From: a virus
Reading direction: 5' to 3' (one strand)
IMG/VR virus record: IMGVR_UViG_3300017752_000242
Span: 1 to 20,012 of that record
Length of the DNA: 20,012 nt
Shown: one piece after another, positions 859 to 19,994 of the stretch
How the letters are laid out: every line of letters begins with the position of its first letter
Numbering within the stretch: the stretch's first letter is position 1
Position numbers and translations under genes: made by a program
The notes under the pieces: generated by a model
What the model was told of the DNA's origin: nothing
What the model saw: the letters and a program-made list of their open reading frames with translations, nothing else
The model's database searches: none

Positions 859-867
859 ATATTTATA
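859..867 (+). promoter_or_regulatory. ATATTTATA site, candidate late promoter upstream of the first tail operon
   Basis: This copy of ATATTTATA lies in the 35-nt gap after the sigma-like gene and ends 20 nt before the ATG at 888. The core TATTTATA matches the T4 late core TATAAATA at six of eight positions. No conserved -35 box is visible, as for T4 late promoters. With T4-like geometry, transcription would start near 873, leaving a leader of about 14 nt. It would serve the genes at 888-4291. Confidence 0.5.
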
Positions 868-887
868 CATGAATAAAACGTATAATT

Positions 888-1238
888 ATGAGTCACTTAG
901 ATAAAAATATATTCGGTAAAAAATCATATTCAGATTTACTTAAAGAAATTTACGATAACCAAAAAAAGAAAGAAACACAAATTAGTGCATTAATCAATGA
1001 ATTAAAACCATTAATCAGTGATATAGGTGATGCTACAATGATTGTACCACTTATCAAAGAGTACATGGAATTAGGCATCAAAAATGATGAAGCACTTATA
1101 AAAGTTGCTACAATTTTTCAACGTATATTTGCAAACGAAGGTAATGAAGATAATGGATTTGGTATTTCGGAAGCAGAAAAAGAACAACTACTAAATGAAA
1201 TACAAAATTTGCAATTGCCTCCTAAAAAAGAAGAATAA
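888..1238 (+). CDS. Small helical protein of unknown function
   Basis: This 116-residue, mostly helical, charged protein has no signal peptide or membrane segment. A lysine-rich N-terminal helix (about 10-30) is followed by a more hydrophobic block (about 35-90) containing LINELKPLISDIGDAT and IVPLIKEYMELGIKNDEAL. The tail is acidic then lysine-rich (LPPKKEE). The middle block resembles small conserved proteins found beside baseplate genes in marine T4-like phages, but I cannot attach a function. The start follows the first ATATTTATA site, has an A-rich context (ataattATG) and lacks a Shine-Dalgarno sequence. The stop TAA directly abuts the ATG of the spike-like gene, so the two are probably translated together. 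A tail assembly factor or baseplate accessory role is possible from position alone. Confidence 0.6.
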   Translation: MSHLDKNIFGKKSYSDLLKEIYDNQKKKETQISALINELKPLISDIGDATMIVPLIKEYMELGIKNDEALIKVATIFQRIFANEGNEDNGFGISEAEKEQLLNEIQNLQLPPKKEE

Positions 1239-2519
1239 ATGGCTATTAACCAAAAAGGACTTTTTGCTAATCAAAAACAAAGTAAACCCCTAATTAATCC
1301 TTTTAATTTAAAGGATGCAATTAAAATAGGTAGGGTTAAAGATATAATTTTAACTAAAGACTACCCTAATATTGAAGATTATGGAGGGGACACAGCTATA
1401 GGAACAATATTCTTTGAAGAACAAAATTTAATTTCCTCAAAATCTCTCCCAGCAAAACCACTTTTCCCTCAATTTTCTTCTTATCCTTTAGTTAATGAGT
1501 TAGTTTTACTATTTCAATTACCTAACCAAAATATAGGCATAAATCGTTCTGAAAAATCATATTATTATATGAATATGATAAGTTTATGGAATCATCCTCA
1601 CCATAATGCTTACCCAAACCCTAAATCTTTAAATCAAAATAAGGAATCTTATAATGAATCTTATTCTAATTCTGAAAAAGGAATACAAAGAAAAGCTTCA
1701 TCTGAACTAGAAATATTAAATTTAAATAGCCCTATAAATATTTTCCAAAACACTTTTATAGAAAGGTCAAACATCCACCCACTTTTACCTTTTGCAGGAG
1801 ATATTATTCACCAAGGAAGATGGGGTAATAGTATTAGATTAGGAAGTACAGCAAAATCCACTAGAGGAAGCATTGTAAGAAATGCCCCAAGTGTATATAA
1901 TAATGATTGGTCTGATGTAGGGAAAAACGGAGATCCTATTACAATATTAAGAAATGGTCAACCTCGAAATGCTAGTGAAAAAGGATGGGAACATATAACA
2001 GAAAGGATCCAAGATGATTTATCTTCTATATATTTAACTTCATATCAATCTATAAAACTAACCCCAGCTAGCGAAAATTATAGATCATATATTAATGCTC
2101 CTACATCAATAAAAGATTATACAAATCCTCAAATACTTCTTAATTCAAGTAGAGTAGTAATTAATGCTAATATGGATTCTACTTTAATAGGAGCTAAGGA
2201 TTCAATTAATTTAAATTCAAATAATTCTGTTAATATTAATACTCAAAATTTAAGAATAGATGCAGGAAGTATTAAGTTAGGTAGTAAAGACGCTGAACAA
2301 GATATAGTTTTAGGAAATAAACTATATTCTTTATTAGATAATTTACTAATAGCATTACTAAAAATGACTAAAGTAATGAAAACATCCCAAATTTGGCCTA
2401 ATGGTGTTCCCCAAGCTGATTTAGAATCAAATACTGAATATGCAAGTGTACATAAAACTTTAGATTTGATACAAAAAGATTTAGAGTCTATTTTATCTAA
2501 AAATGTTAAAACTATATAA
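1239..2519 (+). CDS. Baseplate hub/spike-like protein (gp5/gpV-type, OB-fold plus short beta-helix)
   Basis: This 426-residue protein probably forms the tip of the tail tube that pierces the host envelope. Residues about 28-100 and 180-205 look like a split OB-fold (GRVKDIIL, IGTIFFEE, VNELVLLFQLP, and later PFAGDIIHQGRWGNSIRLGS). Between them lies a distinctive histidine cluster, WNHPHHNAYP (117-126). Residues about 298-360 are short alternating hydrophobic/Asn-Ser strands (VVINANMDSTLIGAKDSINL, VNINTQNLRI) of the type that builds a trimeric beta-helix spike. A helical C-terminus (about 360-420) follows, where a small apex domain might be expected. No lysozyme domain like that of T4 gp5 is visible. 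The start abuts the previous stop (TAAATG), and the gene overlaps the next by one base (TAATG). The structural class is well supported; precise equivalence to T4 gp5 is inference. Confidence 0.7.
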   Translation: MAINQKGLFANQKQSKPLINPFNLKDAIKIGRVKDIILTKDYPNIEDYGGDTAIGTIFFEEQNLISSKSLPAKPLFPQFSSYPLVNELVLLFQLPNQNIGINRSEKSYYYMNMISLWNHPHHNAYPNPKSLNQNKESYNESYSNSEKGIQRKASSELEILNLNSPINIFQNTFIERSNIHPLLPFAGDIIHQGRWGNSIRLGSTAKSTRGSIVRNAPSVYNNDWSDVGKNGDPITILRNGQPRNASEKGWEHITERIQDDLSSIYLTSYQSIKLTPASENYRSYINAPTSIKDYTNPQILLNSSRVVINANMDSTLIGAKDSINLNSNNSVNINTQNLRIDAGSIKLGSKDAEQDIVLGNKLYSLLDNLLIALLKMTKVMKTSQIWPNGVPQADLESNTEYASVHKTLDLIQKDLESILSKNVKTI

Positions 2520-4291
2520 TGTCTAACTCTATTACAGATATAGAAATAAGAGAACTTCTTACTCCTAGTGATGTTTTAGATGCTCAAGATGCAGGAATTA
2601 TTCCTGATGGTAGTTATACTTTAAGAAATGAAGAAGTTATCTTACAAAATAGAGAAATATATGAATGGTTAAAATCAAAAGATGATCCTAGATTTATAGA
2701 TACAATATTTTCAAATGATATAAATCAAGAAATATTATCCAAAACAGTACCTAATAACGGAGAGGAAGAACTACCAGTTTATTTAATAAAATCATCAATC
2801 CCATCAGGGCCAAGAGGTGACATTTCTTTTGAATTTAAGAATGGTAAAGAAGGAGAAATTAAATCTTTATTATGTAAAGGCAATTTATATCCTGAAACTT
2901 ACGATAATTCTATTTTTACTATTAAAGAAGAAATATTAACATCTGAAAATTATGAATATTTACCTTTAGCTGAGAAAGTAGTTGATAATATTAATCTCCA
3001 AATTGAAAATAATAACATAACCCCAGATTTTGGTAAAATATCTATAGTTAAAACTTCAAATGAACCTCCTCAAAATTTTTATTTTTATACTTTAAAAGGA
3101 AAAGTAACAGATGGAACTAATCCCCTATCAAATGTTGCTATTGAGGATGATAATAAAAATATAGGTTTAGATGGTAGTATTACCTATTCTAATCCTAATG
3201 GAGAATTTACTTTAAAAGGAGAATATTTAAAATCAAAAAAATTTAATATTAATTTATCTTTAAAAGATTTTATTTCTAAAACAAAATCTCCATTTACAAA
3301 AACAAGTTCAAATATTTTAACCTTACCTCCTGATTTAGGTGTTATTGTTTTATCAAAAGCAAGCTTTGATCAATCTATAGTAATAAGTAATTCTCATTTG
3401 CAGGATAGTCAAACAAATAGTATAGTAAATGCAAAAAAATTACAAGATCCTGGAGGGTTTGCAACTGGTGAAATTTTAAATAAAATAATAAGTAATGCTA
3501 AAACTATTTTATTACCTTATGCTCTAACACAAATAGCTAAATTTGGAATAACAAATGCTCCCGAAGCTTTAGGTAAATCTTTAGATAGTTTAAACATTTC
3601 TTGTCCTTCTAATTTAGATACCTTAAATAAAATTATAAAACAAAAAAATTCTTTAACAAAACAGTTAAATAACATTTTTGAAAATTTAAAAGATATAAAA
3701 GTTGCAGTTGAAGTTGCTGATCAAGTTATTACTGTAGCATCTATAGTAGCAAGTACCTTAAGTACGTTAATTTTAGCATTCCCTACTATCCCTTTTGCAC
3801 CAGACCCATTAAAACCCATAACATCTAAAATCCCTCAAGCTACTGGGAAATTAAAAAGTGTAATAGAAATTATTGCTGATACATTAGCTAAAATGAAAAT
3901 AATTTCATCTTCAATACTTTTAATTTTAACTATACTAATCCAAATAATCCAGGAAATTTTAAATTATCTATCTCTACTAGATCAATTAATCGAAAAATGT
4001 GCTATTGATGGGGCATTACCTCAAGAAAATATTTCATCAGATTTATTAGCAGCTACTGAAGAACAATCTCAACAATTATCTCCTGTCGTAACTGATGTAA
4101 ATGGGTTTGCAATGGCTGTTGTAGATGTAGAAGGTGCAACAAATCAAGGATTAAAACGTAGAAAAGCTGTAGCTAGAAACCAAGCAGGAGTAATTATGTT
4201 ACAAGGGGAACCTTCATTTTCATCTAACGACCAGATATTAATAGATGAATTAGTATATTATATACAAACAAATGATTTAAAAGCAGATTAA
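2519..4291 (+). CDS. 590-aa tail/baseplate protein with carboxypeptidase-regulatory-like domain and long hydrophobic helices; possible tape measure or hub protein
   Basis: Three parts are visible. The N-terminal 180 residues are mixed and acidic. Residues about 190-280 read as a carboxypeptidase-regulatory-like (Ig-type) beta domain: LKGKVTDGTNPLSNVAI, then NPNGEFTLKGEYL. Residues about 315-500 are helical and strongly hydrophobic, with two membrane-like stretches (about 402-425 and 461-490) separated by a Pro-rich loop (FPTIPFAPDPLKP). The C-terminus (about 522-590) is a compact conserved-looking block (VTDVNGFAMAVVDVEG, NQAGVIMLQGEP). Hydrophobic helices in a phage tail operon suit a tape measure. 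T4 gp29, the T4 tape measure/hub protein, also has 590 residues, but I see no sequence similarity. Its position between the spike and gp25 fits a hub role. A structural role is likely; the tape-measure identity is a hypothesis. It starts at TAATG, overlapping the spike gene. Confidence 0.55.
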   Translation: MSNSITDIEIRELLTPSDVLDAQDAGIIPDGSYTLRNEEVILQNREIYEWLKSKDDPRFIDTIFSNDINQEILSKTVPNNGEEELPVYLIKSSIPSGPRGDISFEFKNGKEGEIKSLLCKGNLYPETYDNSIFTIKEEILTSENYEYLPLAEKVVDNINLQIENNNITPDFGKISIVKTSNEPPQNFYFYTLKGKVTDGTNPLSNVAIEDDNKNIGLDGSITYSNPNGEFTLKGEYLKSKKFNINLSLKDFISKTKSPFTKTSSNILTLPPDLGVIVLSKASFDQSIVISNSHLQDSQTNSIVNAKKLQDPGGFATGEILNKIISNAKTILLPYALTQIAKFGITNAPEALGKSLDSLNISCPSNLDTLNKIIKQKNSLTKQLNNIFENLKDIKVAVEVADQVITVASIVASTLSTLILAFPTIPFAPDPLKPITSKIPQATGKLKSVIEIIADTLAKMKIISSSILLILTILIQIIQEILNYLSLLDQLIEKCAIDGALPQENISSDLLAATEEQSQQLSPVVTDVNGFAMAVVDVEGATNQGLKRRKAVARNQAGVIMLQGEPSFSSNDQILIDELVYYIQTNDLKAD

Positions 4292-4295
4292 TTTA

Positions 4296-4304
4296 ATATT
4301 TATA
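4296..4304 (+). promoter_or_regulatory. ATATTTATA site, candidate late promoter of the gp25-gp6-gp7 run
   Basis: The motif lies in the 25-nt gap after the 590-aa protein gene and ends 12 nt before the ATG at 4317. A start 6-7 nt downstream of the motif would leave a leader of only about 6 nt. The next run of genes is unbroken to 13393 with no gap over 10 nt, so one message could carry the whole wedge module. Confidence 0.5.
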
Positions 4305-4316
4305 ACAAACACAAAA

Positions 4317-4688
4317 ATGAAAACCGAAGCACTTAAAAAAATAATCAAAGAAGCCGTTAGAGAGGCCATACAAGAGGAGCTAAAGGAAGTTTTACTAGAA
4401 GCAATTAAAGCACCTAAAGCTGTAGTTACACAACCAGTACAAGAAAGTATTACATCACCAACTACACTCACTGTTACACAAACACCTAAAAAATCTTTAA
4501 AAGAACAAAGACAATCTTATTTAGATATTATAGGTGAAACAGGAATAAATATGAATAGTACACATGCTCCTGGATTTGGAAATAAACCATTTAACCCTCA
4601 AGGGGCTGGAGATACTACCTCGGCAAATGGAAGTTTACCTACTGGAGAAGTTAATATGGATCAAATAATGGGATTAATGACTAAATAA
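4317..4688 (+). CDS. Small protein with N-terminal amphipathic helix, unknown function
   Basis: This 123-residue protein begins with a long charged amphipathic helix (about 3-31: EALKKIIKEAVREAIQEELK, then EVLLEAI), probably an oligomerisation or docking helix. A Thr/Val/Pro-rich linker (about 35-58) and a Lys-rich segment (KKSLKEQRQSYLDIIGETG, about 58-77) follow. The last third is Gly/Asn-rich and ends in MDQIMGLMTK. There are no catalytic motifs, signal peptide or membrane segment. It overlaps the gp25 gene by one base (TAATG) and is first in the run behind the second ATATTTATA site. Similar small helix-plus-linker proteins occur next to gp25 in related phage modules as far as I recall, so a minor virion or assembly protein is plausible. 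The function is unknown. Confidence 0.6.
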   Translation: MKTEALKKIIKEAVREAIQEELKEVLLEAIKAPKAVVTQPVQESITSPTTLTVTQTPKKSLKEQRQSYLDIIGETGINMNSTHAPGFGNKPFNPQGAGDTTSANGSLPTGEVNMDQIMGLMTK

Positions 4689-5095
4689 TGGCATTTGGAC
4701 AACAACAAATATTTCCAATAGACTTTAATAAAAGTGCTGCTGTAGGTGTAGATTTACCTTTTTCTGCCCCTGGGGTATTTAAATCAAATTATACAACAGC
4801 AGCGGCTACTAAAAACAACTTAATTAATTATTTTTTAACAAACCCTGGTGAACGTCCTTTAAATCCTAGTTTTGGAGGAGGTTTAAGAGCTTTTATTTTC
4901 CAACAAATTACAGATAATAATTTAGATTTCCTTAAAGAAGAAATCTCAGAAAAACTAAAAATCTTTTTTAATAATATTAAAATAGAAAATTTAAACATTA
5001 CAGACAATAAGGATATAAATACAATAACTGTAACTTTATCCTATAGTATTAAAAACACAAATATTAGTGATAGTATAGAAATAGACTTTGCATAA
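4688..5095 (+). CDS. 25: Baseplate wedge protein, gp25/gpW family
   Basis: At 135 residues this is the size of T4 gp25 (132 residues). The diagnostic block NPGERPLNPSFGGGLR at 52-67 contains the family's Glu-Arg motif followed by the Pro and Gly-rich turn. The N-terminal IFPIDFNKS and the C-terminal strands (INTITVTLSYSIK, about 110-122) also fit the GPW_gp25 fold. In contractile tails this protein sits in the wedge core, contacts the gp6 and gp7 homologues, and primes sheath assembly. It overlaps the preceding and following genes by one base each (TAATG), a tight arrangement that suggests coupled translation with gp6. No Shine-Dalgarno sequence precedes it. The family assignment is the firmest in the window; the sheath-priming role is known for the family. 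Confidence 0.9.
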   Translation: MAFGQQQIFPIDFNKSAAVGVDLPFSAPGVFKSNYTTAAATKNNLINYFLTNPGERPLNPSFGGGLRAFIFQQITDNNLDFLKEEISEKLKIFFNNIKIENLNITDNKDINTITVTLSYSIKNTNISDSIEIDFA

Positions 5096-6951
5096 TGGCT
5101 ACAATAAAAAGAGATATAAATTATATAAATAAGGATTTTCCAGATATTAGGGCTAAATTAATAGAATTTTCCCAAACTTATTTTCCTAATACTTACAATG
5201 ATTTTTCACCTACATCACCTGGAATGATGTTTATGGAACAAGCAGCCTATGTAAGTGATATAATGTCTTTTTATTTAGATAATCAACTACAAGAAACATT
5301 TACCCAATTTGCTAGACAAACAAATAATTTATATGAACTAGCTTATATGTTTGGTTATAAGCCTAAAGTAACAACAGCAGCTCAAGTAGAAGTTGAATTA
5401 TTCCAACAAGTTCCTTCAAAAAAAGTAGGTGGAAGTTTTATTCCTGATTATGATTATACTTTAACTATAGGGGAAAATACTACACTACAATCAACATCAA
5501 ATCCTGATTCTACATTTTTAATACAGGATAAATGTGATTTTAGTTTTTCAAGTTCATATGACCCAACAGAAATTTCTGTTTACCAAGTTATAGGAACTGA
5601 ACCTCAATTTTACCTTTTAAAAAAGACAAGAAAAGCTATATCTGCTAATATTAATACCAAAAGTGTTTCATTTAACTCTCCAAAACAATTTCAAACTATT
5701 AATATAGAAGCATCTAATATAATCAAAATATTAGACATTACGGATTCAGATGGTAATATATGGAATGAAGTAGATTATTTAGGTCAAGAAATGATATTTG
5801 ATAGTATAAAAAATACTAATCCAAATGATCCTAATAATGTAGCTGATGTAGGTGAAGTACCTTATTTACTACAACTTAAAAAATGTCAAAGACGTTTTGC
5901 TACAAGATTCACCTCAGAAAACAATTTACAAATACAATTTGGAGCGGGTAATCCAAATGATACGGATGAATTAATAACACCTAACCCAAACAATGTAGGT
6001 ATAGGTTTACCATTTGAACAAGATAAACTTACAACAGCATATTCACCTACAAACTTTTTATTTACAAAAACTTATGGTATATCTCCATCAAATACAACTT
6101 TAACAATACGATATTTAACAGGTGGAGGGGTTGAATCCAATGTTCCTAGTAGTGATTTAACTGGAATAGAAGGTAGTAATACTTTTTTTAATACTATTAA
6201 TTTAAATGCTACTACAGCTAATTATATTTTTAACTCTTTAGCATCCAATAATCCTTTAGCTGCTGATGGTGGAGCATCTGGAGATACAAATAATGAAATT
6301 AGACAAAATACTTTAATGCAAATTGCTACCCAACAAAGAACAGTTACTTTAGATGACTATAAAGTAAGAGCAATGAGCATGCCTTCTGATTTTGGAACCG
6401 TATCTAAAATATATATAGAAAAACCTACATTAGATAATCAAACATCCACAGTTGAAACTTTATGTATGTATGTTTTAGCTCAAAATTCATTAGGCCAACT
6501 AGACTCTCCAACATTAACTTTAAAGAAAAATTTAAGAACCTATTTATCACAGTATAAAATGATAGGTGATAGTATTGAAATAAAAGATGCTTATATCATT
6601 AATTTAGGTATAGATTTTGAAATAGTAGTATTACCTAATTTTATAAATAGTCAAGTAATATTATCCTGCATTGAATCCTTACAAACTTATTTTGATGTAG
6701 ATAATTGGCAAATAAATCAACCTATTTTAATAAATGACTTATATGTTAGGTTAGATAATATAGAAGGGGTTCAAACTGTAAAAAATATAAAATTTTCAAA
6801 CAAATCGGGAATTCCATCTGGATATTCTGAATATGCTTATGATATAGAAGGAGCTACTTTAAATGGTGTAATTTATCCAAGTTTAGATCCTAGTATATTT
6901 GAAGTAAGATATTTAAATAATGATATTAAAGGTAGAGTAGTACCACTATAA
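5095..6951 (+). CDS. 6: Baseplate wedge protein, gp6/gpJ-like
   Basis: This 618-residue protein is close in size to T4 gp6 (660 residues). The N-terminus has the family pattern: MATIKRDINYINKDFPDIRA, then FSPTSPGMMFMEQAAYVSD and ELAYMFGYKP (about 37-90), which forms the helical head of baseplate J-like proteins. Residues about 417-443 (VTLDDYKVRAMSMPSDFGTV) match the conserved segment of the J-like core. The C-terminal part (about 500-600) repeats the small alpha/beta domain expected before the wedge dimerisation region. In T4, two gp6 chains and one gp7 form each wedge and encircle the hub. The gene follows gp25 with a one-base overlap, the standard W-J order. There is no truncation or frameshift. 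Identity is well supported by N-terminal pattern, length and position. Confidence 0.88.
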   Translation: MATIKRDINYINKDFPDIRAKLIEFSQTYFPNTYNDFSPTSPGMMFMEQAAYVSDIMSFYLDNQLQETFTQFARQTNNLYELAYMFGYKPKVTTAAQVEVELFQQVPSKKVGGSFIPDYDYTLTIGENTTLQSTSNPDSTFLIQDKCDFSFSSSYDPTEISVYQVIGTEPQFYLLKKTRKAISANINTKSVSFNSPKQFQTINIEASNIIKILDITDSDGNIWNEVDYLGQEMIFDSIKNTNPNDPNNVADVGEVPYLLQLKKCQRRFATRFTSENNLQIQFGAGNPNDTDELITPNPNNVGIGLPFEQDKLTTAYSPTNFLFTKTYGISPSNTTLTIRYLTGGGVESNVPSSDLTGIEGSNTFFNTINLNATTANYIFNSLASNNPLAADGGASGDTNNEIRQNTLMQIATQQRTVTLDDYKVRAMSMPSDFGTVSKIYIEKPTLDNQTSTVETLCMYVLAQNSLGQLDSPTLTLKKNLRTYLSQYKMIGDSIEIKDAYIINLGIDFEIVVLPNFINSQVILSCIESLQTYFDVDNWQINQPILINDLYVRLDNIEGVQTVKNIKFSNKSGIPSGYSEYAYDIEGATLNGVIYPSLDPSIFEVRYLNNDIKGRVVPL

Positions 6952-6961
6952 CAATAAAAAT

Positions 6962-7333
6962 ATGGAAAATTTAGAAAATTCTTTTTCAAAAACTTCTTTA
7001 GATTTAGAATCTAAATCACCTTTAGGAGGTCCTAATAGAACAAATGCAGATAATATTGTTCAAGGAACATATACTAATAATAGATCAGGTAATCTATATG
7101 GTAAATCAGTTGGAGGTCCATTAAAAGACAATAAAGGAAAAATTATTAATAATATGTTAAGTAAATATACACCTAAATCAACATATTTAGATTCTTTCAA
7201 AGGAACAAATTTTGCAGAACGTTTAAAACCTTTAAACCAAAATAACCCTAACCCAATTACTCCTTTTCCTTCAAACGTAGGAGGAATCATACAACAAATT
7301 CCTACAGATTTAGGTAGTGGAAACCAAACATAA
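6962..7333 (+). CDS. Small Asn/Gly/Pro-rich protein of unknown function
   Basis: This 123-residue, low-complexity, probably largely unstructured protein is rich in Asn, Gly, Pro, Ser and Lys. It contains short similar segments (KSPLGGPNRTN at about 18-28, SVGGPLKDN at about 49-57) and a Pro/Asn stretch (NQNNPNPITPFPSNVGG, about 93-109). No helix pattern, signal peptide or membrane segment is seen. It sits 10 nt after gp6 and 5 nt before the next structural gene, so it belongs to the wedge operon. An extended linker or clamp protein within the baseplate is possible, but nothing in the sequence proves it. The opposite-strand open frame over this gene is a shadow. Confidence 0.55.
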   Translation: MENLENSFSKTSLDLESKSPLGGPNRTNADNIVQGTYTNNRSGNLYGKSVGGPLKDNKGKIINNMLSKYTPKSTYLDSFKGTNFAERLKPLNQNNPNPITPFPSNVGGIIQQIPTDLGSGNQT

Positions 7334-7338
7334 TTAAA

Positions 7339-8511
7339 ATGGCATTTTATAAAATATTCCCACATAAAGACGCTACATTATATTCATTTTATCCTAATAT
7401 GAATACTGGGATAGATCCTGTTAATCAAATATCAAATTTAAACATAGCAGTAGATTCTAACCCACAAGTAGCTAGAATATTAACAGAATTTATTCAAGAT
7501 GAAATTGAAGATGTCATTAATAATAAAATTAAAGGAGCAGAATGGGATGTTAATTTTAGACAATATATTGCAACAGCTCAAGGTATAGTTGAATCTATAG
7601 AAACATTTATACACCCAGTAGCTCAATATTGGTGGAATGGAACTGGAACTTATTTAGATGTACCTCAAACTACTGATGGTTGTAATTGGCTTTCCCCGGC
7701 ATTTATGGGTTCTAATATCCCATGGTCACAAAGTGGTACTGATAGTACTAACCATTATGTTACAAGTTCTTACAATCCAAGTTTTGTAGGTGCTGGTGGT
7801 GGGGCTTGGTTTGTTAGTGGTTCAGATGGAGTAGAGTATGTAGTAACTCAATCATTTGATACACGTAGTGAAAAAGATTTAAATGTTAGTGTTAAAAATA
7901 TTGTAGAGTTATGGTATAGTAGTTCCTTAGGAGTACCCGCTTCTGCCTCATTACCCAATTATGGTTTTATAACTAAATGGGAAAATTTAGCTGAATTTAA
8001 TCAAAATGCTCAAATACAACCTGTAATGCAATTTTATAGTGTTGATACTAATACTATATACCCACCACAATTAGAATTTAAGTGGAGAGATTATCAAACA
8101 GTATTAACTGGATCTGCCACAGCTAGTATAGTAGATACTACTAATTTAATATCTTCATTAGCTGAAAATCCAGGTTATTTTACACCTCAGGGAATTAATA
8201 GATTTAGATTTAATGTTGCACCAAAATATCCTAAAAGAATATTCTCTACAGCATCTTTATTTACAGGAACAAATTATTTACCAACAGCTTCATATTATGC
8301 TATAAAAGATTTGGAGACCAACGAATATGTTGTAGATTACGACACTAGTTATACACAATTAAGTTCAGATAGTAAAGGAAATTATTTTGATGTTTATATG
8401 AATGGATTAGAACCAGAAAGATATTATGCAATATGTGTTAAAACTACAATTAAAGGTTCTACTTTAGTATTAGACGATAATTATTATTTTAAAGTAGTTA
8501 ATACTCTGTAA
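7339..8511 (+). CDS. Beta-rich virion (baseplate) structural protein
   Basis: This 390-residue protein starts with KIFPHKDATLYSFYPNMNTG, reminiscent of the opening strand of DNRLRE/disaggregatase-type beta-sandwich domains (a DATxYS...PNxNxG pattern). The middle is Trp-, Gly- and Ser-rich (QYWWNGTGTYL, GAGGGAWFVSGSDGV). The C-terminal 100 residues look like an Ig/fibronectin-like sandwich (NYFDVYMNGLEPERYYAICV, about 347-366, ending NYYFKVVNTL). Such proteins are typical of baseplate-peripheral or carbohydrate-contacting virion parts. It lies between gp6 and the gp7-like gene, where extra wedge components are found, and overlaps the next gene by one base. No catalytic motif is visible. A structural role is inferred from position and beta-rich composition; the exact T4 counterpart, if any, is unclear. 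Confidence 0.6.
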   Translation: MAFYKIFPHKDATLYSFYPNMNTGIDPVNQISNLNIAVDSNPQVARILTEFIQDEIEDVINNKIKGAEWDVNFRQYIATAQGIVESIETFIHPVAQYWWNGTGTYLDVPQTTDGCNWLSPAFMGSNIPWSQSGTDSTNHYVTSSYNPSFVGAGGGAWFVSGSDGVEYVVTQSFDTRSEKDLNVSVKNIVELWYSSSLGVPASASLPNYGFITKWENLAEFNQNAQIQPVMQFYSVDTNTIYPPQLEFKWRDYQTVLTGSATASIVDTTNLISSLAENPGYFTPQGINRFRFNVAPKYPKRIFSTASLFTGTNYLPTASYYAIKDLETNEYVVDYDTSYTQLSSDSKGNYFDVYMNGLEPERYYAICVKTTIKGSTLVLDDNYYFKVVNTL

Positions 8512-9089
8512 TGGCTGAAAATTTAAATTTAAATAAACAAGTTTTTAATAAGAGAGCATATCTAAAAACTATAGATACTTCTTTTAGTGAATTGGGGGCT
8601 AAAACTCTCCAAGAAGAAATTTCATCCCAACCTACAGTTCAAGAGTTTTTTAATATGTACAATACTTTATTTTATAATATAAATGAATTAGGTCCTACCA
8701 ATTCCCATGAGTATTTAATAAAAACAAGTCAAGAATATATAGGGTTTAAAGAAGATAATGAAATAATAAAATTACTTCAAGCCGAAATAGCAGGTTTAAG
8801 AAAAGAACTTTTAGAAACCCAAAAACAACTATCAGGCCTAGCTATAGAAGCAGCTTCAGTTTCTAGTGATGTTCCCAATGTAACTCTTCCAGAACCTGAA
8901 ATTCCAGAACCAGTACCCGTAGAAGTTCCAACCCCATCAACTCCAACTACACCTGATCCACCAACAGATGAAGAGAGAGTAATTAATGACTTTAATAGAT
9001 ACCCAAAATCATCAGTAAAAAAGAGATCAGAAAGACTAGGATTAGATAAAAAATATATTAGAGGAATTAAAAAAGCAAATAATTTATAA
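8511..9089 (+). CDS. Coiled-coil and proline-rich structural protein, unknown function
   Basis: This 192-residue protein has clear segments. An N-terminal domain (1-75) contains TSFSELGAKTLQEEISSQPT and NSHEYLIKTSQEYIGF. A probable coiled coil follows (about 80-115, with regularly spaced leucines: LLQAEIAGLRKELLETQKQL). A Pro/Glu/Thr-rich rigid linker (about 121-151, with PEPEIPEPVPVEVPTP) leads to a basic C-terminus (about 152-192, KKRSERLGLDKKYIRGIKKA) that could be a small helical DNA- or protein-binding piece. The N-terminal domain resembles proteins beside the large wedge gene in marine T4-like phages. The length is near that of T4 gp53 (196 residues), but I see no matching motif. One-base overlaps on both sides (TAATG) tie it to the wedge run. 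A trimeric or dimeric connector in the baseplate is a reasonable guess only. Confidence 0.6.
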   Translation: MAENLNLNKQVFNKRAYLKTIDTSFSELGAKTLQEEISSQPTVQEFFNMYNTLFYNINELGPTNSHEYLIKTSQEYIGFKEDNEIIKLLQAEIAGLRKELLETQKQLSGLAIEAASVSSDVPNVTLPEPEIPEPVPVEVPTPSTPTTPDPPTDEERVINDFNRYPKSSVKKRSERLGLDKKYIRGIKKANNL

Positions 9090-12000
9090 TGGCTCAAATC
9101 ATCCCCATAGATCCCCTTACGTTTGAAGCTCAATCCTATTCACAAAAAGATGAAGGATTAATCTTAAAAACCTCATTTAATTCTAATTTAGATTTAACTG
9201 GATATATAGAGTTTTATTCTTATGATAATAATGAAGAATTATTAGATCAAAATATAAATTATAATAATTATAGAGTTGAAAATTCTGGAACATCTACTTC
9301 TCCTGACAATGTCCAAAGTATTATAATAGACCCTGCAAAAGATTTAGAAGTATTAGCTGGAGATGGAGGAGGAGAATATATAGGTTTTTATAATTTCTTA
9401 AATTTAGAAATAGGAAACCAAACCCAAGAACTTTATATAAGTGAAATCTCCTCAGACAGAACAGAAATTAGATTAGAAAGTAATGATCTTATTGATATAG
9501 ATTTTGTAGAACAATCCGAAGATTTTATTGATAAAAGAGAAGAAAGTGAGTATTTTTTAGATTTCTATTTAAATTTTGGTAATAATATTTTAATTATAGC
9601 TAACAATTTAAAATTAGAAAATGAAGAGACTGATAACCCATCAATATTAGTTAAATTATATGAACCCTTACCTATAGGAATACAATTAAAATCTAAATTA
9701 TTTATTGTAACTAAATTTAATGAATCTACAGCTTATAAAGCTATATTCCCTTCAGAACCTACTTTTGTTCAAGGGAGTAGGTTTATGAAAGGTCCTAACT
9801 TTGCTATTCCCGTAAAAAATCAAGTAAATAATTCTACTGAGAATCTATCTTATGATAATATTATATCTAATGCTCCTTCTAATTCTCAAAACCAAATCCA
9901 AAGCCTTCTTGAAGAAAAATCAATTAATTTAAGTGTAAATTATAATGATTTCTCGGATTTTATTAATTTTAGTTCTGCACAAACACGTATAGAAAATTTT
10001 TATTATAAAGTAGGTTTAATTGAGAATTATAATTCTGAAATAAATGCTCTAAACAATGTAACAGGTTCAACTACTAGTAAACAAATTATTTCTACTAAAA
10101 TTTCTAATGTAACTAAAAATTTTGATCAGTTTGAATATTTTATGTATTATAGTAGTGGTTCTATGGTTTCATATCCTAAATCTACAACTACTCAACCTTA
10201 CACTTTATATCCTACTACTAGTTCTCAAGTATTAACTTGGTTAGGTAGTGTGAATGAAAATAGTGGAAATTTCGGAGGTTTACTTTTATCAGCCTCTAAT
10301 TATGATAATGAAAACCCAGACCAACTAAAAAAATCTATTCCAGAATATTTAAGAGAAGACCCAGCCAACCAACCATATGATTTATTTGTTGATATGGTTG
10401 CACAGTATTATGATAATATTTGGTTATACACAAAAGACATTACACAAAAATATAATGCAGATAATAGATTAGATTTTGGTATATCTAAAGATTTAGTATC
10501 TGATGCTATTAAAGATTTTGGTATAAAATTATATCAAAATAATTTTTCAAACAAAGAATTATACACAGCTTTTTTAGGAATTACTCCGGATGGATCATTA
10601 TTTCCATTCCCAGAAATAACAGGATCATTACCTGCCCCTACAGGAATGGAATTTGTAGATACAATGATTTCGGCATCAAATGATGTAATATCAATGGATG
10701 ATACTAATAAATCTTTATACAAAAGAATTTATCATAACATACCATACCTGCTCAAATCAAAAGGAACCCTTACTGGATTACGAGCATTAATAACTTCATA
10801 TGGCATACCTGATACTATATTAAAAATATCTGAATTCGGCGGTAAAGATCAAGTTAACGCTAATGACTATGATTTATACTTTAATAATTTTAATTACGCA
10901 TTTAATACTAAAGAAGGTAACAGTATTACAACCCCTTGGGGAGATACTTCTTTAGGAGTTGGTTTAAACAAATCTTGGATTCCTAATCCTAATTATAGCA
11001 GTAAAGATGCTGGAGCTAATACAGTTCAATTTAGATTTAAAGCTGAAAAGATTACATCAGGAACTATACCTTATGGTTTAAGTAACAAAAAACAAACTTT
11101 ATGGACTTTAACTAGTGAAGGAAATTTAAAAAACTCTTCTCAATTATATTTGTCATATGAAAAATTTGGTTTAAATTCTGGTTCACTCGTTAATGCTAGT
11201 GGTTCATATGATGGATCAATATCAGACCCCGATTATAAAAATGGAAAATTAATATTTTTACCTGATACACAAGATAATACTAATTTTGCTGCTATAGAAT
11301 TACCTTTTTTTGATGATGGTTGGTGGTCTGTTCAAGTTAAAAGAACTGGATTTGCCGATTTTGTATTATCTGCGGGAAATAAAATATATAATGGAAACAC
11401 AGGAACATCACTAGGATTTTATGCTACATCAAGTATTACAATTACTAAACCCTTAGGCTGGGATTCTTCTTATTTTTCAAACTTTGCAAAAGATTTTAAA
11501 GAAGGAATTAATACTAACTTTCTTGGTTTTTCAGGTTTACTTCAAGAAATAAGATATTATACTACTCCAATTAGTGAAAGTGTATTTAAAGATTATATAA
11601 TGAATCCTTTATCTTTTGAGGGTAATGGGATTAATAGTGCTCCTAATCAATTAATATTTAGAGCTGCTTTAGGAAGTGAATTATTAGAAAAATCAGCAGT
11701 AGTAAATTCATATGGTAATGCTATTTATGGTAGTAGCAACTATGGGAGTGCTTTTATTACAAGTTCATTTAATATAGATCGAATATCTACATCTTCTATC
11801 CATCCTAAAGTAACAGGATCTTGGGAAATAATAAATTCATTCCAAAGTCCCTCATCATCAAATTTTACTCTTAATTCTTCTAATTTTGTTAGTAATGTAG
11901 AATCTTTCTTTTTAGATCAACCTGCAGTAGGTATAAAAAATAGAATAACAGATAAAATAAGATCTGAAAATAGTACTATAGCTTCTGGAAATGTATTATC

Positions 12001-13393
12001 ACCTATTAAAAGTTTATCCCAAAATACAGAAGCAAGTGCATCATATACTGATAATATAAATTATTTAGAAGTAGCATTTTCACCACAAAATCAAATTAAT
12101 GATGATATTATAGGACAAATGGGTCATTTTAATATTGGTGATTATATAGGTGATCCTGCTCAACGATTTACAGGTAATAATTACCCAGATTTAAATAATT
12201 TAAGTGAAGATTATTTTAAAAAATATATTAAACAATATGATTTAACCGATTTTGTTAGACTAATAAAATTCTTTGATAATTCATTATTTAAAATGATAAA
12301 AGATTTTGTACCTGTGAGAACTAGTTTAGCATCAGGTTTAGTAATAAAACAACATTTACTAGAAAGAAATAAATACCCCCAACCCCAAGTATCCTACTCA
12401 GAAGAAGATTTAACTGGCTGTGTTAATTCTCATAAAGTATGGAATACTGCTTCTCAAGAAACTGAAATATCATGTTCTAAAATTGCAACTGTAGAAGGAG
12501 GTCCTGCAGGCATGTTTAACCCTTTTAATATTAATTATGAAGGTTTATCTACAGTTATTTCAGGAAGTAATACATTTAATTACCAGTGGGCTACTGTTGC
12601 ATTTGATGCTGTGTCAGAAACTGGGTTAGGGGATGTTGCAAAATTAATTGTACATCAACCTGGATTTTTTACCAATACAAACATATTAAAATTTTTAGAT
12701 TTTAGAGATACAACAAGTGAAAATAATCCTAATCTTTGGTTATCATTAAAATCAGTCCCAGCTATATTTCCTTTGTTTTATTTTAATACTTTAAATAATC
12801 ATGTTAGTGTAGCAAGAGTCCAAAACATAGAAGATATAGGAGGTGGTAGTTTTAGAATTTCATTAGCTACAGGATATGGGTTTGCTTCATCAGTACCAGC
12901 AGGAAATAATGAAGATAAAAATGGTGGAGTATTTTCATTTCAATCTAGTTCACTAGGTGGGACAACTTTTTCAGAAACAATTCCTTTTACTTCAAGTATT
13001 ACTAATTATACTTTTGAAACACCCCCTCAATTTAATGTGACTCAAAGTTGGGAAGTTACAGAACCTACTCTATCAGGTTCTATTACTTATATACACGATT
13101 CACAAGATGAATTTTATAATGGTGAATTAAGTGGTTCTACTTTAATAGTATCTAATGGAGAATTAAATGAAGGTGATGCTGAATTTAAAACTATTAATCC
13201 CAAGGGAGCAACTTATGGAATTAGATTTTATGATACTGGTTCGGGGTATAATTTTAATGATTTTATTAATCCCCTTAATAATCCTTACAACGGTTTTATA
13301 CAAATGTGGTATCAAGAAAATGCCTCATTATCAACAATCCCAGCTGCTAACCCAGGTGGAGGAGCTGGTGGAGGTGGAAATACTAATATTTAA
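9089..13393 (+). CDS. Large baseplate wedge protein, gp7/gpI-like, with LamG-like domain
   Basis: At 1434 residues this is the largest gene here (T4 gp7 has 1032). An N-terminal beta domain carries ELYISEISSDRTEIRLESN (about 114-132). Residues about 545-590 contain YHNIPYLLKSKGTLTGLRAL followed by YGIPDTILKISEFGG, a helical KGT segment that recalls the tail protein I core, regarded as equivalent to gp7. Residues about 640-835 look like a LamG/concanavalin-type sandwich (VQFRFKAEKI, WWSVQVKR, GLLQEIRYYTTPISESVF). Residues about 1055-1100 form a conserved helical block (FFDNSLFKMIKDFVPVRTSL, then IKQHLLERNKYP). The C-terminus is Gly-rich (PGGGAGGGGNTNI). Its place after gp6 fits the J-I order. 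The lectin-like domain may contact surface glycans or neighbouring subunits. The wedge role is likely; one-to-one identity with gp7 is inferred. Confidence 0.68.
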   Translation: MAQIIPIDPLTFEAQSYSQKDEGLILKTSFNSNLDLTGYIEFYSYDNNEELLDQNINYNNYRVENSGTSTSPDNVQSIIIDPAKDLEVLAGDGGGEYIGFYNFLNLEIGNQTQELYISEISSDRTEIRLESNDLIDIDFVEQSEDFIDKREESEYFLDFYLNFGNNILIIANNLKLENEETDNPSILVKLYEPLPIGIQLKSKLFIVTKFNESTAYKAIFPSEPTFVQGSRFMKGPNFAIPVKNQVNNSTENLSYDNIISNAPSNSQNQIQSLLEEKSINLSVNYNDFSDFINFSSAQTRIENFYYKVGLIENYNSEINALNNVTGSTTSKQIISTKISNVTKNFDQFEYFMYYSSGSMVSYPKSTTTQPYTLYPTTSSQVLTWLGSVNENSGNFGGLLLSASNYDNENPDQLKKSIPEYLREDPANQPYDLFVDMVAQYYDNIWLYTKDITQKYNADNRLDFGISKDLVSDAIKDFGIKLYQNNFSNKELYTAFLGITPDGSLFPFPEITGSLPAPTGMEFVDTMISASNDVISMDDTNKSLYKRIYHNIPYLLKSKGTLTGLRALITSYGIPDTILKISEFGGKDQVNANDYDLYFNNFNYAFNTKEGNSITTPWGDTSLGVGLNKSWIPNPNYSSKDAGANTVQFRFKAEKITSGTIPYGLSNKKQTLWTLTSEGNLKNSSQLYLSYEKFGLNSGSLVNASGSYDGSISDPDYKNGKLIFLPDTQDNTNFAAIELPFFDDGWWSVQVKRTGFADFVLSAGNKIYNGNTGTSLGFYATSSITITKPLGWDSSYFSNFAKDFKEGINTNFLGFSGLLQEIRYYTTPISESVFKDYIMNPLSFEGNGINSAPNQLIFRAALGSELLEKSAVVNSYGNAIYGSSNYGSAFITSSFNIDRISTSSIHPKVTGSWEIINSFQSPSSSNFTLNSSNFVSNVESFFLDQPAVGIKNRITDKIRSENSTIASGNVLSPIKSLSQNTEASASYTDNINYLEVAFSPQNQINDDIIGQMGHFNIGDYIGDPAQRFTGNNYPDLNNLSEDYFKKYIKQYDLTDFVRLIKFFDNSLFKMIKDFVPVRTSLASGLVIKQHLLERNKYPQPQVSYSEEDLTGCVNSHKVWNTASQETEISCSKIATVEGGPAGMFNPFNINYEGLSTVISGSNTFNYQWATVAFDAVSETGLGDVAKLIVHQPGFFTNTNILKFLDFRDTTSENNPNLWLSLKSVPAIFPLFYFNTLNNHVSVARVQNIEDIGGGSFRISLATGYGFASSVPAGNNEDKNGGVFSFQSSSLGGTTFSETIPFTSSITNYTFETPPQFNVTQSWEVTEPTLSGSITYIHDSQDEFYNGELSGSTLIVSNGELNEGDAEFKTINPKGATYGIRFYDTGSGYNFNDFINPLNNPYNGFIQMWYQENASLSTIPAANPGGGAGGGGNTNI

Positions 13394-13395
13394 AA

Positions 13396-13404
13396 ATATT
13401 TATA
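13396..13404 (+). promoter_or_regulatory. ATATTTATA site immediately before the 96-aa gene
   Basis: The motif occupies most of the 14-nt gap after the gp7-like gene and ends only 3 nt before the ATG at 13408. If it works as a -10-like late element, transcription would begin at or just after the start codon. Either the spacing to +1 is unusually short and the message is leaderless, or the site acts in another way. The next downstream in-frame Met is near the end of the small gene, so a simple start shift does not solve this. Confidence 0.45.
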
Positions 13405-13407
13405 ATT

Positions 13408-13698
13408 ATGGCAGTAACAGACCCTACAGGAGGTAAAGTAATATATATTAAAGTAGCTAAAATAGATGCTAATGGGGTAGATTTAACTTCAACTTTAGAT
13501 TCTTTATCTACTTTAGTTTTACCTTTTGGAAATACTAATGTTACTTTTAATATTTTAAATATAACATCTACCCCAAATTATTTTTTATACTATGTTTCTC
13601 CCCAAGGTTATAATAATATGATGACTCTTACAGGATCATTAGATACAGGGACTCCTTCTTATAATTCATCTTTTATCTCTAATACATCTTATCCTTAA
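13408..13698 (+). CDS. Small beta-rich protein, unknown function
   Basis: This 96-residue protein is rich in Thr, Ser, Asn and aliphatic residues in a strand-like pattern (KVIYIKVAKIDANGVDLTST, then VTFNILNITSTPNYFLYYVS). It looks like one small beta domain, with no signal peptide or helix. The ATG lies 3 nt beyond an ATATTTATA site, and the next gene starts 3 nt after its stop. Position between the gp7-like protein and the 601-aa structural protein suggests a baseplate or fibre-attachment component. The ATG at 13408 is the only start that keeps the domain whole. A longer frame that enters from inside the gp7-like gene is a different frame and not real. I do not recognise the family with confidence. 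Confidence 0.6.
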   Translation: MAVTDPTGGKVIYIKVAKIDANGVDLTSTLDSLSTLVLPFGNTNVTFNILNITSTPNYFLYYVSPQGYNNMMTLTGSLDTGTPSYNSSFISNTSYP

Positions 13699-13701
13699 AA
13701 T

Positions 13702-15507: not shown

Positions 15508-15538
15508 AGATAATTTGGATTAAAAACAAACAATACAC

Positions 15539-15547
15539 ATATTTATA
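15539..15547 (+). promoter_or_regulatory. ATATTTATA site, candidate late promoter of the 15566-18156 genes
   Basis: The motif lies in the 58-nt gap after the 601-aa gene, the longest non-coding gap in the window, and ends 18 nt before the ATG at 15566. T4-like geometry gives a start near 15553 and a leader of about 12 nt. The upstream flank is A-rich (taaaaacaaacaatacac) with no -35 box. The gap shows no hairpin and T-run that would suggest an intrinsic terminator. Confidence 0.52.
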
Positions 15548-15565
15548 ACATATAATTAAACACAA

Positions 15566-16237
15566 ATGGGATATTTAAATAATCAAGTAGTAACAGTTGA
15601 TGCTATTCTTACAAAAAAAGGTAGACAATTATTAGCTCAAAATGACGGTTCATTCAGAATAACACAATTTGCACTCGCAGATGATGAAATAGATTATACA
15701 CTGTATAATCCAGAAAATAATCAGGGTTCAGCGTTTTATGGGGAAGCAATAGATAATATGCCTCTATTAGAAGCATTTGCAGATGAAAGCCAAATAATGA
15801 AATATAAATTAGCTACCCTACCAAGAGGTACTGCAGTCTTACCAGTATTAGATTTAGGTTATGCTTCTATATCTTTAAAACAAGGTGCTTCATTATCAAT
15901 AACACCACAAACATTAAATTATTTAGGTAATGCCTCAGCATTTGAAACATCAGGATATTCTGTTACTATAGCAGATGTTAGAACAATGGCTACTTTTAAT
16001 GGGATAGGAATTCAATCAGAAGCTGCCCAATCTTCAAATACTACTTCCACAACCACATTAGGAACAAATGTATCATCTACAGTAATAGGAACTCAAATTA
16101 ATTTAAGAGGAACTACAGTAAATACTTTATTTGGTTCAAATTCACAAATATCAACAACATTAACAGTAGTAGGTTTAGACAGTGGAGCTAGAATAACAAT
16201 ACCTGTTACCATAACACAAACAACAGCAAATTCATAA
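15566..16237 (+). CDS. Conserved phage structural protein
   Basis: In this 223-residue protein the N-terminal half (1-100) has a recognisable conserved pattern: VTVDAILTKKGRQLLAQNDG, ITQFALADDEIDYTLYNP, then a stretch with PLLEAFADESQIMKYKLATL. As far as I recall, this domain is frequent in tail regions of marine and Bacteroidota T4-like phages, where it is annotated only as structural. The C-terminal half (about 105-223) is a Thr/Ser-rich beta segment (TTSTTTLGTNVSSTVIGTQI) resembling an Ig-like decoration. It follows the fourth ATATTTATA site and is followed after 3 nt by the first of the two paralogues, so the three genes form one unit. The ADDEIDY motif and the small size suit an adaptor near the fibre attachment site. 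This role is inferred. Confidence 0.65.
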   Translation: MGYLNNQVVTVDAILTKKGRQLLAQNDGSFRITQFALADDEIDYTLYNPENNQGSAFYGEAIDNMPLLEAFADESQIMKYKLATLPRGTAVLPVLDLGYASISLKQGASLSITPQTLNYLGNASAFETSGYSVTIADVRTMATFNGIGIQSEAAQSSNTTSTTTLGTNVSSTVIGTQINLRGTTVNTLFGSNSQISTTLTVVGLDSGARITIPVTITQTTANS

Positions 16238-16240
16238 GAT

Positions 16241-17242
16241 ATGGGATTTAAAAGATTAGACGCTCAAGATTTTGTAGTTAGTGCTGATGCAGTACAATCT
16301 ACAGCATGGTCAACAGATACACCTACACTAACAAGTTTTTTTACATCATCTGTACAAAAATCAGGAACATCTGGGAATTATTATTTAAGTGCATTTCAAG
16401 TAACACCAACAGATGATGCAGCCGCTGTACAATTTGATATAGCATATGGAAATATGTTAGGTAGTGGTAGTAGCTATTTTAACTCTGCATACCCAGACCG
16501 AACACCTTCATCTACAATATATGGACAATATAGATCAATGATATTAGAAGATGAAAATTCTAGCTTTCAGTATGGTGATGGTACTAATATTTACACTCCT
16601 AATGATTTTTGGGCTTTATCAATAGATAGAGCTAGATACAAACAAGAAATTTTTTCTTCAACATTTAATCTTACTCTTACAGGTGCAGGAGGAACATTAA
16701 ATCTAACCAGCAATATCTTAGATACATCAATAAATACTTTTTTAGGTTCATCCCAGGTTTATCAAATAGTATCAGGATCAAATGGTAGTGCAATAGCAGG
16801 AGGAGGATTTGTAACCAATTCAGGTTCTTATGGTTTATTATTTCCCCAATTAGGAACTATTTTATTAAACCCCGCAGCAATTAATCAAAGTATAGGAGTT
16901 AATTCTGATCAAAGTTCTAATTTAACTAACGGTGAAAATAATATAACTTTATTTGAATCTTTAAGTTCATTTACTTTAAATGCCCAAGAAACTATCACTT
17001 CAGATTATGTTTTTATAAGATCTAGAAATTCAGAATTTAATTACTCTACTAATCCTTCATTTATATCAGGTTCCACTGGTGAAGTAGTATTTGAAAGTTT
17101 TATTAATAACCCTCAAACATATATTACTACAGTAGGAATGTATAATGACAAAAATGATTTGATAGCAGTAGCAAAACTTTCAAGACCTTTACAAAAAGAT
17201 TTTACAAAAGAAAGTTTAATAAGAGTCAAATTAGATTTTTAG
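16241..17242 (+). CDS. Structural protein, first of two tandem paralogues
   Basis: This 333-residue beta-rich protein has no signal peptide or catalytic motif. Its last 38 residues (from TTVGMYN, through LIAVAKLSRPLQ, to IRVKLDF) align without gaps to the end of the next gene product, with 20 identities by my count. Upstream, SEFNYSTNPSFISGS matches NEFTYTQNPSAISGS of the neighbour. Other blocks also line up in order: FKRLDAQDFVVSADAV with FKSLTTSDVIVTPFKV near the N-termini, and STIYGQYRSMIL with ALIYNSIKQLYY. The two are therefore collinear paralogues. The gene starts 3 nt after the previous stop and ends in TAG, unlike its TAA-ending neighbours. A virion role, probably at the baseplate periphery or fibre network, is inferred from context. 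Confidence 0.66.
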   Translation: MGFKRLDAQDFVVSADAVQSTAWSTDTPTLTSFFTSSVQKSGTSGNYYLSAFQVTPTDDAAAVQFDIAYGNMLGSGSSYFNSAYPDRTPSSTIYGQYRSMILEDENSSFQYGDGTNIYTPNDFWALSIDRARYKQEIFSSTFNLTLTGAGGTLNLTSNILDTSINTFLGSSQVYQIVSGSNGSAIAGGGFVTNSGSYGLLFPQLGTILLNPAAINQSIGVNSDQSSNLTNGENNITLFESLSSFTLNAQETITSDYVFIRSRNSEFNYSTNPSFISGSTGEVVFESFINNPQTYITTVGMYNDKNDLIAVAKLSRPLQKDFTKESLIRVKLDF

Positions 17243-17247
17243 GATGA

Positions 17248-18156
17248 ATGAGTGTTTTCAAGTCATTAACTACGTCGGATGTTATAGTAACTCCATTTAA
17301 AGTAAATAAAAGTTTTTCTTTTCAAGGAGCAAACACTTATGAAGAACTTAATGTAGGTATAGATAGGTTTATGGGAAGGAATATTCCATATATTTCTGGA
17401 TCAAATACAACAGGAAATATAAAAACCCAATCCCAAGCTTTAATATATAATTCAATTAAACAATTATATTACACTAATTTCTTATCAGGTAGTAATGGTT
17501 CTCCTGCTAATTTACCTTTTACTAATACTGATGGTACTATTACAATTCAAGGTGGAAGCGGATCTTATCAACCTATGTATGAAAATTATCTACCTAACAC
17601 ATTATTAGCAAATAGATTTTTCCCAACAGGTTCTAGTGAAGAAATAGGAGTAATATCAATACCTTCAAATTTATTTGGGGAATATATTAAACCTGGAAGC
17701 TTTGAATTTAAATTTTTTCAAGATACAGAGGTTCTTACTTTAACTGATAATAGTGAAGGTAAAATATTTTTAAATACTCAAGAAGTTGGAGACATAATTT
17801 ATCAACATGGTAATATTATAATTACAGACTTTCAAAATATAAGTATCCCTTCCTTAACCCAGTCTGGAAATACTACTTGTTCTTTTCAAAGCACAATGAC
17901 AATATATGAATCTCAGTATAAATGTACTTTAAATCCAAATGAATTTACATATACCCAAAACCCATCTGCTATTTCAGGTAGTGCAAATAGTGGGGTAGTT
18001 TATGATTTTTTAACGGGTTCATATTTTCAACCTTATGTAACAACAGTAGGATTATACAATGGAGCAAATCAATTAGTAGCCGTGGGAAAATTATCACAAC
18101 CTTTACAAAGTTCTAATGTTACTGATACTACTATATTAGTTAACTTAGATTTATAA
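17248..18156 (+). CDS. Structural protein, second of two tandem paralogues
   Basis: This 302-residue protein is the diverged partner of the gene before it, sharing the C-terminal TTVGLYN, LVAVGKLSQPLQ and LVNLDL segments. It contains a middle SIPSNLFGEYIKPGSFEFKF block that matches a weaker equivalent in the partner, and two cysteines (in TTCSFQS and QYKCTLN) absent from it. I chose ATG 17248, which keeps the N-terminal similarity; an ATG at 17244 is in another frame and closes quickly. AGGA at 17241-17244 is the closest thing to a Shine-Dalgarno sequence but is only 3 nt from the ATG. The last base of the stop is the first base of the next ATATTTATA site. Both paralogues probably occupy similar positions in the virion, perhaps as a hetero-oligomer (inference). 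Confidence 0.66.
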   Translation: MSVFKSLTTSDVIVTPFKVNKSFSFQGANTYEELNVGIDRFMGRNIPYISGSNTTGNIKTQSQALIYNSIKQLYYTNFLSGSNGSPANLPFTNTDGTITIQGGSGSYQPMYENYLPNTLLANRFFPTGSSEEIGVISIPSNLFGEYIKPGSFEFKFFQDTEVLTLTDNSEGKIFLNTQEVGDIIYQHGNIIITDFQNISIPSLTQSGNTTCSFQSTMTIYESQYKCTLNPNEFTYTQNPSAISGSANSGVVYDFLTGSYFQPYVTTVGLYNGANQLVAVGKLSQPLQSSNVTDTTILVNLDL

Positions 18157-18164
18157 TATTTATA
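18156..18164 (+). promoter_or_regulatory. ATATTTATA site immediately before the fibre-like gene
   Basis: The motif overlaps the stop codon of the second paralogue by one base and ends 3 nt before the ATG at 18168, the same spacing as the site at 13396. The fibre protein's N-terminus (MAKQLSKSGIATGQ) looks complete, so moving the start downstream is unattractive. With usual promoter geometry +1 would fall at or after the ATG. The site may therefore give a leaderless message or have a non-promoter role. Confidence 0.45.
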
Positions 18165-19541: not shown

Positions 19542-19994
19542 ATGGAATGGATAGGACTCAAAGGAGAACCAATATCAACCATCACAGATTTCCCAGATAA
19601 CACATTCGGATTCGTTTATAGAATAGTACATAAACCTACGGGCAAAGCCTATATAGGTAAAAAAGTATTATACTTTAATCGAAAAGTTAAATTAACTAAA
19701 AAAGATTTAGCTTTATATGAAGGTGTAGTAGGCAGGAAACCATCTTATAAACTAGTAATAAAAGAATCAAACTGGTTAGATTATTGGGGTTCAAATAAAT
19801 TACTTAAAGAAGTAATGGACTTAGAGCCAATAGAAAATTTCGAACGTCATATTGTTAAAACGGCACCAAATAAAAAACTATTAACATACTACGAAACACA
19901 AATGCAATTCGTACATCAGGTATTAGAAAAACCCGATGAATATTTTAATGATAATGTATTAGGAAAGTTTTACACAAAGGACTTTGAATTATAA
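19542..19994 (+). CDS. GIY-YIG-type endonuclease, possible free-standing homing or repair nuclease
   Basis: This 150-residue protein has the GIY-YIG arrangement: FVY (24-26) followed 11 residues later by YIG (37-39, in GKAYIGKK). Then come DYWGSNK (80-86), an Arg in FERHIV (102) and a Glu in TYYETQ (118), which are candidates for the catalytic Arg/Glu. Seg-type enzymes of T4 carry the same core and nick or cleave DNA, often promoting their own spread. The C-terminal 30 residues (VHQVLEKPDEYFNDNVLG) do not show a recognisable DNA-binding repeat, so target specificity is unclear. The gene lies 36 nt after the fibre gene, and its gap is the only internal gap over 10 nt that lacks ATATTTATA. This suggests separate expression or later acquisition. 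The first Gly of the GIY motif is replaced by Phe. Confidence 0.7.
   Translation: MEWIGLKGEPISTITDFPDNTFGFVYRIVHKPTGKAYIGKKVLYFNRKVKLTKKDLALYEGVVGRKPSYKLVIKESNWLDYWGSNKLLKEVMDLEPIENFERHIVKTAPNKKLLTYYETQMQFVHQVLEKPDEYFNDNVLGKFYTKDFEL

Follow-up and report, generated by a model that had tools for sequence, protein, structure and literature searches.

A predicted late promoter with a core reverse-complementary to that of T4 in a group of T4-like viruses with probable flavobacterial hosts

The late promoter of bacteriophage T4 is a textbook minimal promoter, served by the gp55/gp33/gp45 system and activated by the gp45 clamp. Its core, TATAAATA, is an 8-bp AT-only element at -10 that has no -35 element and is followed by AT-rich DNA. 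It is placed before structural genes and read by a phage specificity factor of the sigma-2 type. Transcription starts approximately 6 nt downstream of the core, and exact sites in T4 lie at least 13 nt from the ATG. The clamp-activated gp55 system has been regarded as general for T4 relatives (PMC2988020). The polarity of TATAAATA is kept in the T4-like cyanophages examined. In the in-silico late motif of Aeromonas phage Aeh1 the core varies, with a/gC at -13/-12 (PMC2988020). The housekeeping promoter of the Bacteroidota is built from TTTG at -33 and TAnnTTTG at -7.

The motif described here, ATATTTATA, is the 8-mer TATTTATA with a preceding A, and it is like the T4 late promoter in core length and composition, position at -10, lack of a -35 element, AT-rich downstream sequence, placement before structural genes and association with a candidate phage factor of the sigma-2 type. 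It is unlike the T4 promoter in that TATTTATA is found in gene direction and TATAAATA is not enriched, a polarity that is also opposite to that of the two cyanophages examined. Its distance from the ATG can be as short as 0-4 nt. As to the start site, the sequence offers a conserved purine/A 4-5 nt downstream, and T4 starts at approximately 6 nt. The two central bases of the core differ, whereas Aeh1 varies at -13/-12. The motif shares its hosts and a similar -7 box length with the Bacteroidota housekeeping promoter. In the openly accessible literature, no description of a phage promoter with TATTTATA was found.

The DNA analyzed is the 20,012-nt stretch of IMG/VR record IMGVR_UViG_3300017752_000242 (the window). 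ATATTTATA appears on the + strand at five gene boundaries. The relevant features are as follows.

118-852, + strand: candidate gp55-like late sigma, 244 aa; sigma-2-like domain at residues ~14-120, extra helical domain at ~142-244
859-867, + strand: predicted late promoter, copy 1; 20 nt to the ATG at 888; in 127/139 orthologous starts
888-1238, + strand: open reading frame for a 116-aa protein with no family match; opens unit 1 (888-4291)
4296-4304, + strand: predicted late promoter, copy 2; 12 nt to the ATG at 4317; in 95/104 orthologous starts
4317-13393, + strand: unit 2, with a small protein, two baseplate wedge proteins and more genes, ending with a 1434-aa protein; gaps of at most 10 nt
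4688-5095 and 5095-6951, + strand: the baseplate wedge proteins of unit 2 (PHROG 261/43 and 219)
13396-13404, + strand: predicted late promoter, copy 3; 3 nt to the ATG at 13408, leaderless-type spacing
15539-15547, + strand: predicted late promoter, copy 4; 18 nt to the ATG at 15566; in 14/14 orthologous starts
18156-18164, + strand: predicted late promoter, copy 5; 3 nt to the ATG at 18168, leaderless-type spacing

The first-pass annotation had reported five + strand copies at gene boundaries, each before an ATG, and all of them were confirmed. Its count of five motif-bearing gaps among the six internal gaps longer than 10 nt also stands, and the internal gaps total 205 nt rather than the ~220 nt it gave. 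It did not mention that two of the copies are spaced just 3 nt from the ATG. The first A of copy 5 doubles as the last base of the upstream stop codon. The sole gap longer than 10 nt that lacks the motif is the 36-nt gap before 19542. The protein encoded at 19542-19994, after the tail genes, has a match to PHROG 447 ('NAD synthetase') and a weak one to a family of homing endonucleases.

The number of TATTTATA copies on both strands of the whole window, 9 against 9.3 expected, shows no enrichment, so that any excess had to be sought in where the copies lie. Position, not number, is the unusual feature of TATTTATA in the window. A 9-mer common to five gaps was obtained in none of 20,000 simulations drawn from the dinucleotide composition of the gaps themselves; the maximum was four gaps, reached once. 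A sixth exact copy of the 9-mer is antisense and lies within a gene at 1733-1741. The core had been described as a variant of the T4 core at the two central positions. The bases are correct (TAT at the start and ATA at the end are unchanged, and the two central A's become T's), and what was missed is that TATTTATA and TATAAATA are exact reverse complements of one another, such that a search with either finds the same nine places in the window. A strand-blind count would therefore show nothing unusual, and orientation had to be tested. A reversed-pattern control is useless here because ATATTTATA is identical when read backwards.

Relatives of the window were collected from IMG/VR (80), and 75 more distant ones were reached through the sigma candidate. 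The gaps of the 80-relative set contain TATTTATA 143 times in gene direction and 12 times in reverse, against 81 and 136 times in coding sequence; these counts also take in stretches of immuto and Mel-JY01. When no motif was assumed, the top 9-mer in the gaps of the 80 relatives was ATATTTATA, found in 85 of 164 distinct gaps versus 1 for its reverse complement. The corresponding values for the gaps of the more distant relatives are 118 and 0. In an unbiased gap count, TATAAATA and TATTTATA appear 16 and 7 times in T4, 6 and 2 times in S-RIM8, and 6 and 0 times in S-ME01. The order is reversed in immuto (22 TATTTATA vs 7 TATAAATA), in Mel-JY01 (9 vs 2) and in two 65-kb contigs of the family (12 vs 0 and 12 vs 3). 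The 484-kb phage LR756508, tested as an outgroup, has no TATTTATA polarity (15 vs 14). Its sigma is 42% identical and it has a related baseplate gene; the lack of polarity despite this sigma suggests that sigma clades may not all use the motif alike.

The motif is tied to particular starts, namely the orthologues of the genes at 888, 4317 and 15566, and is absent at most others; for the orthologues of the gene at 7339 it appears at 20 of 93 starts. Copy 4 has a counterpart at the same place in immuto (90660). Conservation is lower for the copies before 13408 and 18168, which have few orthologues. For the former, TATTTATA is present in 4 of 14 relatives, just 5' of the ATG in three (L012, L067 and L068) and further upstream in L080. 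For the latter, the single orthologue found (L083) carries ATATTTATT in the corresponding position. An apparent pair of motifs facing each other in some leaders (23/127) was rejected, as it consists of the motif and the bases surrounding the ATG. The strand-switch test for independent promoters provided few informative cases (5/45).

The 244-aa protein encoded beside copy 1 had been called a gp55-like sigma. The adjacency holds, also in relatives, and the likeness to gp55 comes from a weak profile match and a model of moderate confidence. No sequence match assigning a sigma was found in PHROGs, Pfam or PDB. Alignment of the candidate family with seven gp55 proteins of T4-type phages using hhalign gave an E value of 2.6e-4 over 101 columns, and a gp55 profile search of immuto did not find the candidate, which is gp118 in that phage, at E ≤ 1. 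Residues 14-120 of the predicted model (pLDDT 67) match sigma factors, and T4 gp55 (7d7c_F) appears in the second row with Z 9.4 and 3.1 Å over 99 residues, although helical proteins readily give a Z of ~9, which makes this score a modest one. In contrast to T4 gp55, the candidate has an extra domain of ~100 aa. A hydrophobic C-terminal clamp-binding tail of the T4 type is not seen for it in the alignment, and the cyanophage gp55 rows are also without one. The extra domain (102 residues, window 544-849) is a confident helical fold (pLDDT 84) with no confident match in PDB, the best being a chain of a human RNA polymerase III initiation factor (Z 5.3). It also matches TFIIB chains with Z of 3.4-4.5.

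The weak sequence homology of this neighbor, together with the alternative sigma factors that flavobacteria possess (PMC9723704), would suit a promoter that some other factor of phage or host recognizes, either a different sigma or a separate activator. This is improbable, given the match of the model to sigma factors including gp55, the gp55-like gene that adjoins the first copy in relatives, and the finding that among the phages tested the motif occurs only where a gp55-like gene is present. Recognition by the gp55-like protein itself also offers candidate residues for the altered core. In T4 gp55, Tyr97 stacks on A(-12), Asn13 and His95 touch A(-9), and Thr99 bonds A(-8) (PMC7892883). In the hhalign alignment, Tyr97, His95 and Thr99 correspond to an invariant Tyr98, a Tyr/Phe96 and mostly Gly100 of the candidate family. 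Cyanophage gp55 also has Phe at the His95 position, yet TATAAATA is kept in those phages, and thus the change at Thr99 appears to be the better candidate for the altered specificity.

The association with late genes was examined in Flavobacterium phage immuto, a complete cultured 160-kb genome (NC_055915) with T4-type head and tail genes, whose baseplate wedge protein shares 46% identity with its counterpart in the window. On this basis the host of the window phage is probably a flavobacterium. The motif is found in 17 of 38 gaps of the structural (late) blocks of immuto and in 5 of 76 gaps elsewhere (Fisher p = 3.2e-6). Sites in immuto precede terminase, portal, sheath, tube, hub and tape measure genes. 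Early-type promoters show the inverse pattern, with 1 of 38 late-block gaps and 20 of 76 others (p = 0.0016); both p-values are indicative because the block limits were drawn by the analyst from gene annotation. Five motif sites lie upstream of genes outside the late blocks, and about half of the late-block gaps are without the exact motif. Two expectations of the first-pass annotation, enrichment at gene boundaries (in the relatives and in complete immuto) and placement before late genes, are thus borne out in silico.

The early promoters of immuto have the form TTG-N-TATATTTAG, as in the host consensus (-33/-7). Approximately 20 near-identical promoters of this host type, GTTGC-N-TATATTTAG(G/A)TATCAATAATTAAAAC, are found at ~22-76 kb of immuto (L089, L090, L087). 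The resemblance of the early TATATTTAG to the motif, the same length and AT richness, and the TA and central T in common could indicate that ATATTTATA is a weak variant of the promoter read by the host primary sigma (-33 TTTG / -7 TAnnTTTG). We regard this as quite improbable. In the motif, A stands in place of both T(-7) and G(-5), which hardly vary in the host -7 box (PMC6847099). TTG at the -33 spacing accompanies 22 of 23 early -7 boxes of immuto and only 6 of 23 TATTTATA sites, on a background of 8.7%. Unrelated flavobacterial phages also lack the motif: the counts in four Bacteroidota phages that are unrelated but comparable in GC are 0-1 copies per 29-46 gaps.

The weighted logo of 354 sites in 72 gene groups reads A-TATTTATA-A-n-n-R-A. 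No -35 or -33 element is conserved upstream in this logo, in agreement with the first-pass annotation, which saw no -35 element. The purine and the A at 4-5 nt downstream remain when the logo is restricted to sites 9 nt or more from the ATG, which suggests that they mark the start site; a start 5-8 nt downstream had been expected. The promoters of F. johnsoniae have 4-5 nt from the -7 box to the start (PMC6847099). The ATG begins 3-5 nt past the motif in 21 of the 72 gene groups. With the predicted start at 4-5 nt, roughly one in four marked genes would therefore have a transcript that is leaderless or nearly so. For comparison, 5.5% of the mRNAs of F. psychrophilum are leaderless (PMC9723704).

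Avoidance of the motif inside genes was assessed by synonymous-codon shuffling of ~1,500 genes of the family, from which the expectation for each 9-mer was obtained. The antisense copy, TATAAATAT, is present within genes at 0.18-0.23 times expectation and ranks 4 of 512 AT-only 9-mers; those ahead of it are homopolymers and a TA repeat. For the sense copy the value is ~0.5 times expectation, and for the same-composition control 0.86-0.98 times. T4 provides the mirror image in small numbers: antisense TATTTATA is found once against 8.3 expected, and sense TATAAATA 6 times against 6.8. The avoidance of antisense copies fits a directional promoter in DNA and not an mRNA element. An RNA signal in the leader, either a processing site or a translation-initiation element, would account for a motif just before start codons in hosts whose initiation favors A-rich leaders (PMC6847099), but it is hardly credible given a distance to the ATG that varies from 0 to more than 30 nt, the many other starts without the motif, its occurrence mainly before late genes in immuto, and an avoidance that is stronger for antisense copies than for sense copies (0.2 vs 0.5 times), which an mRNA signal does not predict.

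The gp45 clamp was not detected in immuto or Mel-JY01 with PF09116, which finds it in T4 and S-RIM8; a clamp of divergent sequence may nonetheless escape detection, as the cyanophage clamp recognized by PF09116 does with PF02916. The DNA polymerase of immuto belongs to family A, and none of family B was detectable; Mel-JY01 has a family B polymerase and no detectable clamp. With neither gp45 nor a family B polymerase detectable, clamp-activated late transcription as in T4 is unlikely in immuto, to which this applies; the window covers 20 kb of its own phage.

The most probable explanation, held with good confidence, is that ATATTTATA is a -10-like, -35-less late promoter read by the phage gp55-like sigma. 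From the position, polarity, conservation and late-gene association of the motif, the lack of a -35 element and the avoidance within genes, we infer sigma recognition, start site, timing and leaderless translation as follows. The gp55-like sigma would bind the host core RNA polymerase and read TATTTATA on the nontemplate strand. RNA would begin ~4-5 nt downstream of TATTTATA and run toward the structural genes, and where the site is 3-4 nt from the ATG the mRNA would be leaderless. Such mRNAs might be tolerable since flavobacterial ribosomes do not rely on Shine-Dalgarno pairing. The reverse-complemented core suggests a late sigma with changed DNA specificity.

The late promoter proposed by the first-pass annotation is thus supported by the sequence, which makes a strong case for a novel form of the T4-type late promoter. 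A large group of T4-like viruses, whose hosts are probably marine flavobacteria, appears to mark its late genes with ATATTTATA. More tentatively, and with somewhat less than even confidence, a widespread marine lineage may carry a late system of T4 ancestry that was freed of the clamp, with an added sigma domain replacing clamp tethering, a reverse-complement core, and many late mRNAs starting at or next to the AUG. The lineage would represent a natural specificity switch for which a solved T4 reference structure exists, and the residues that read -9/-8 are directly testable. The motif would also be a simple means of locating late units in fragments of uncultured phages with unannotated genes.
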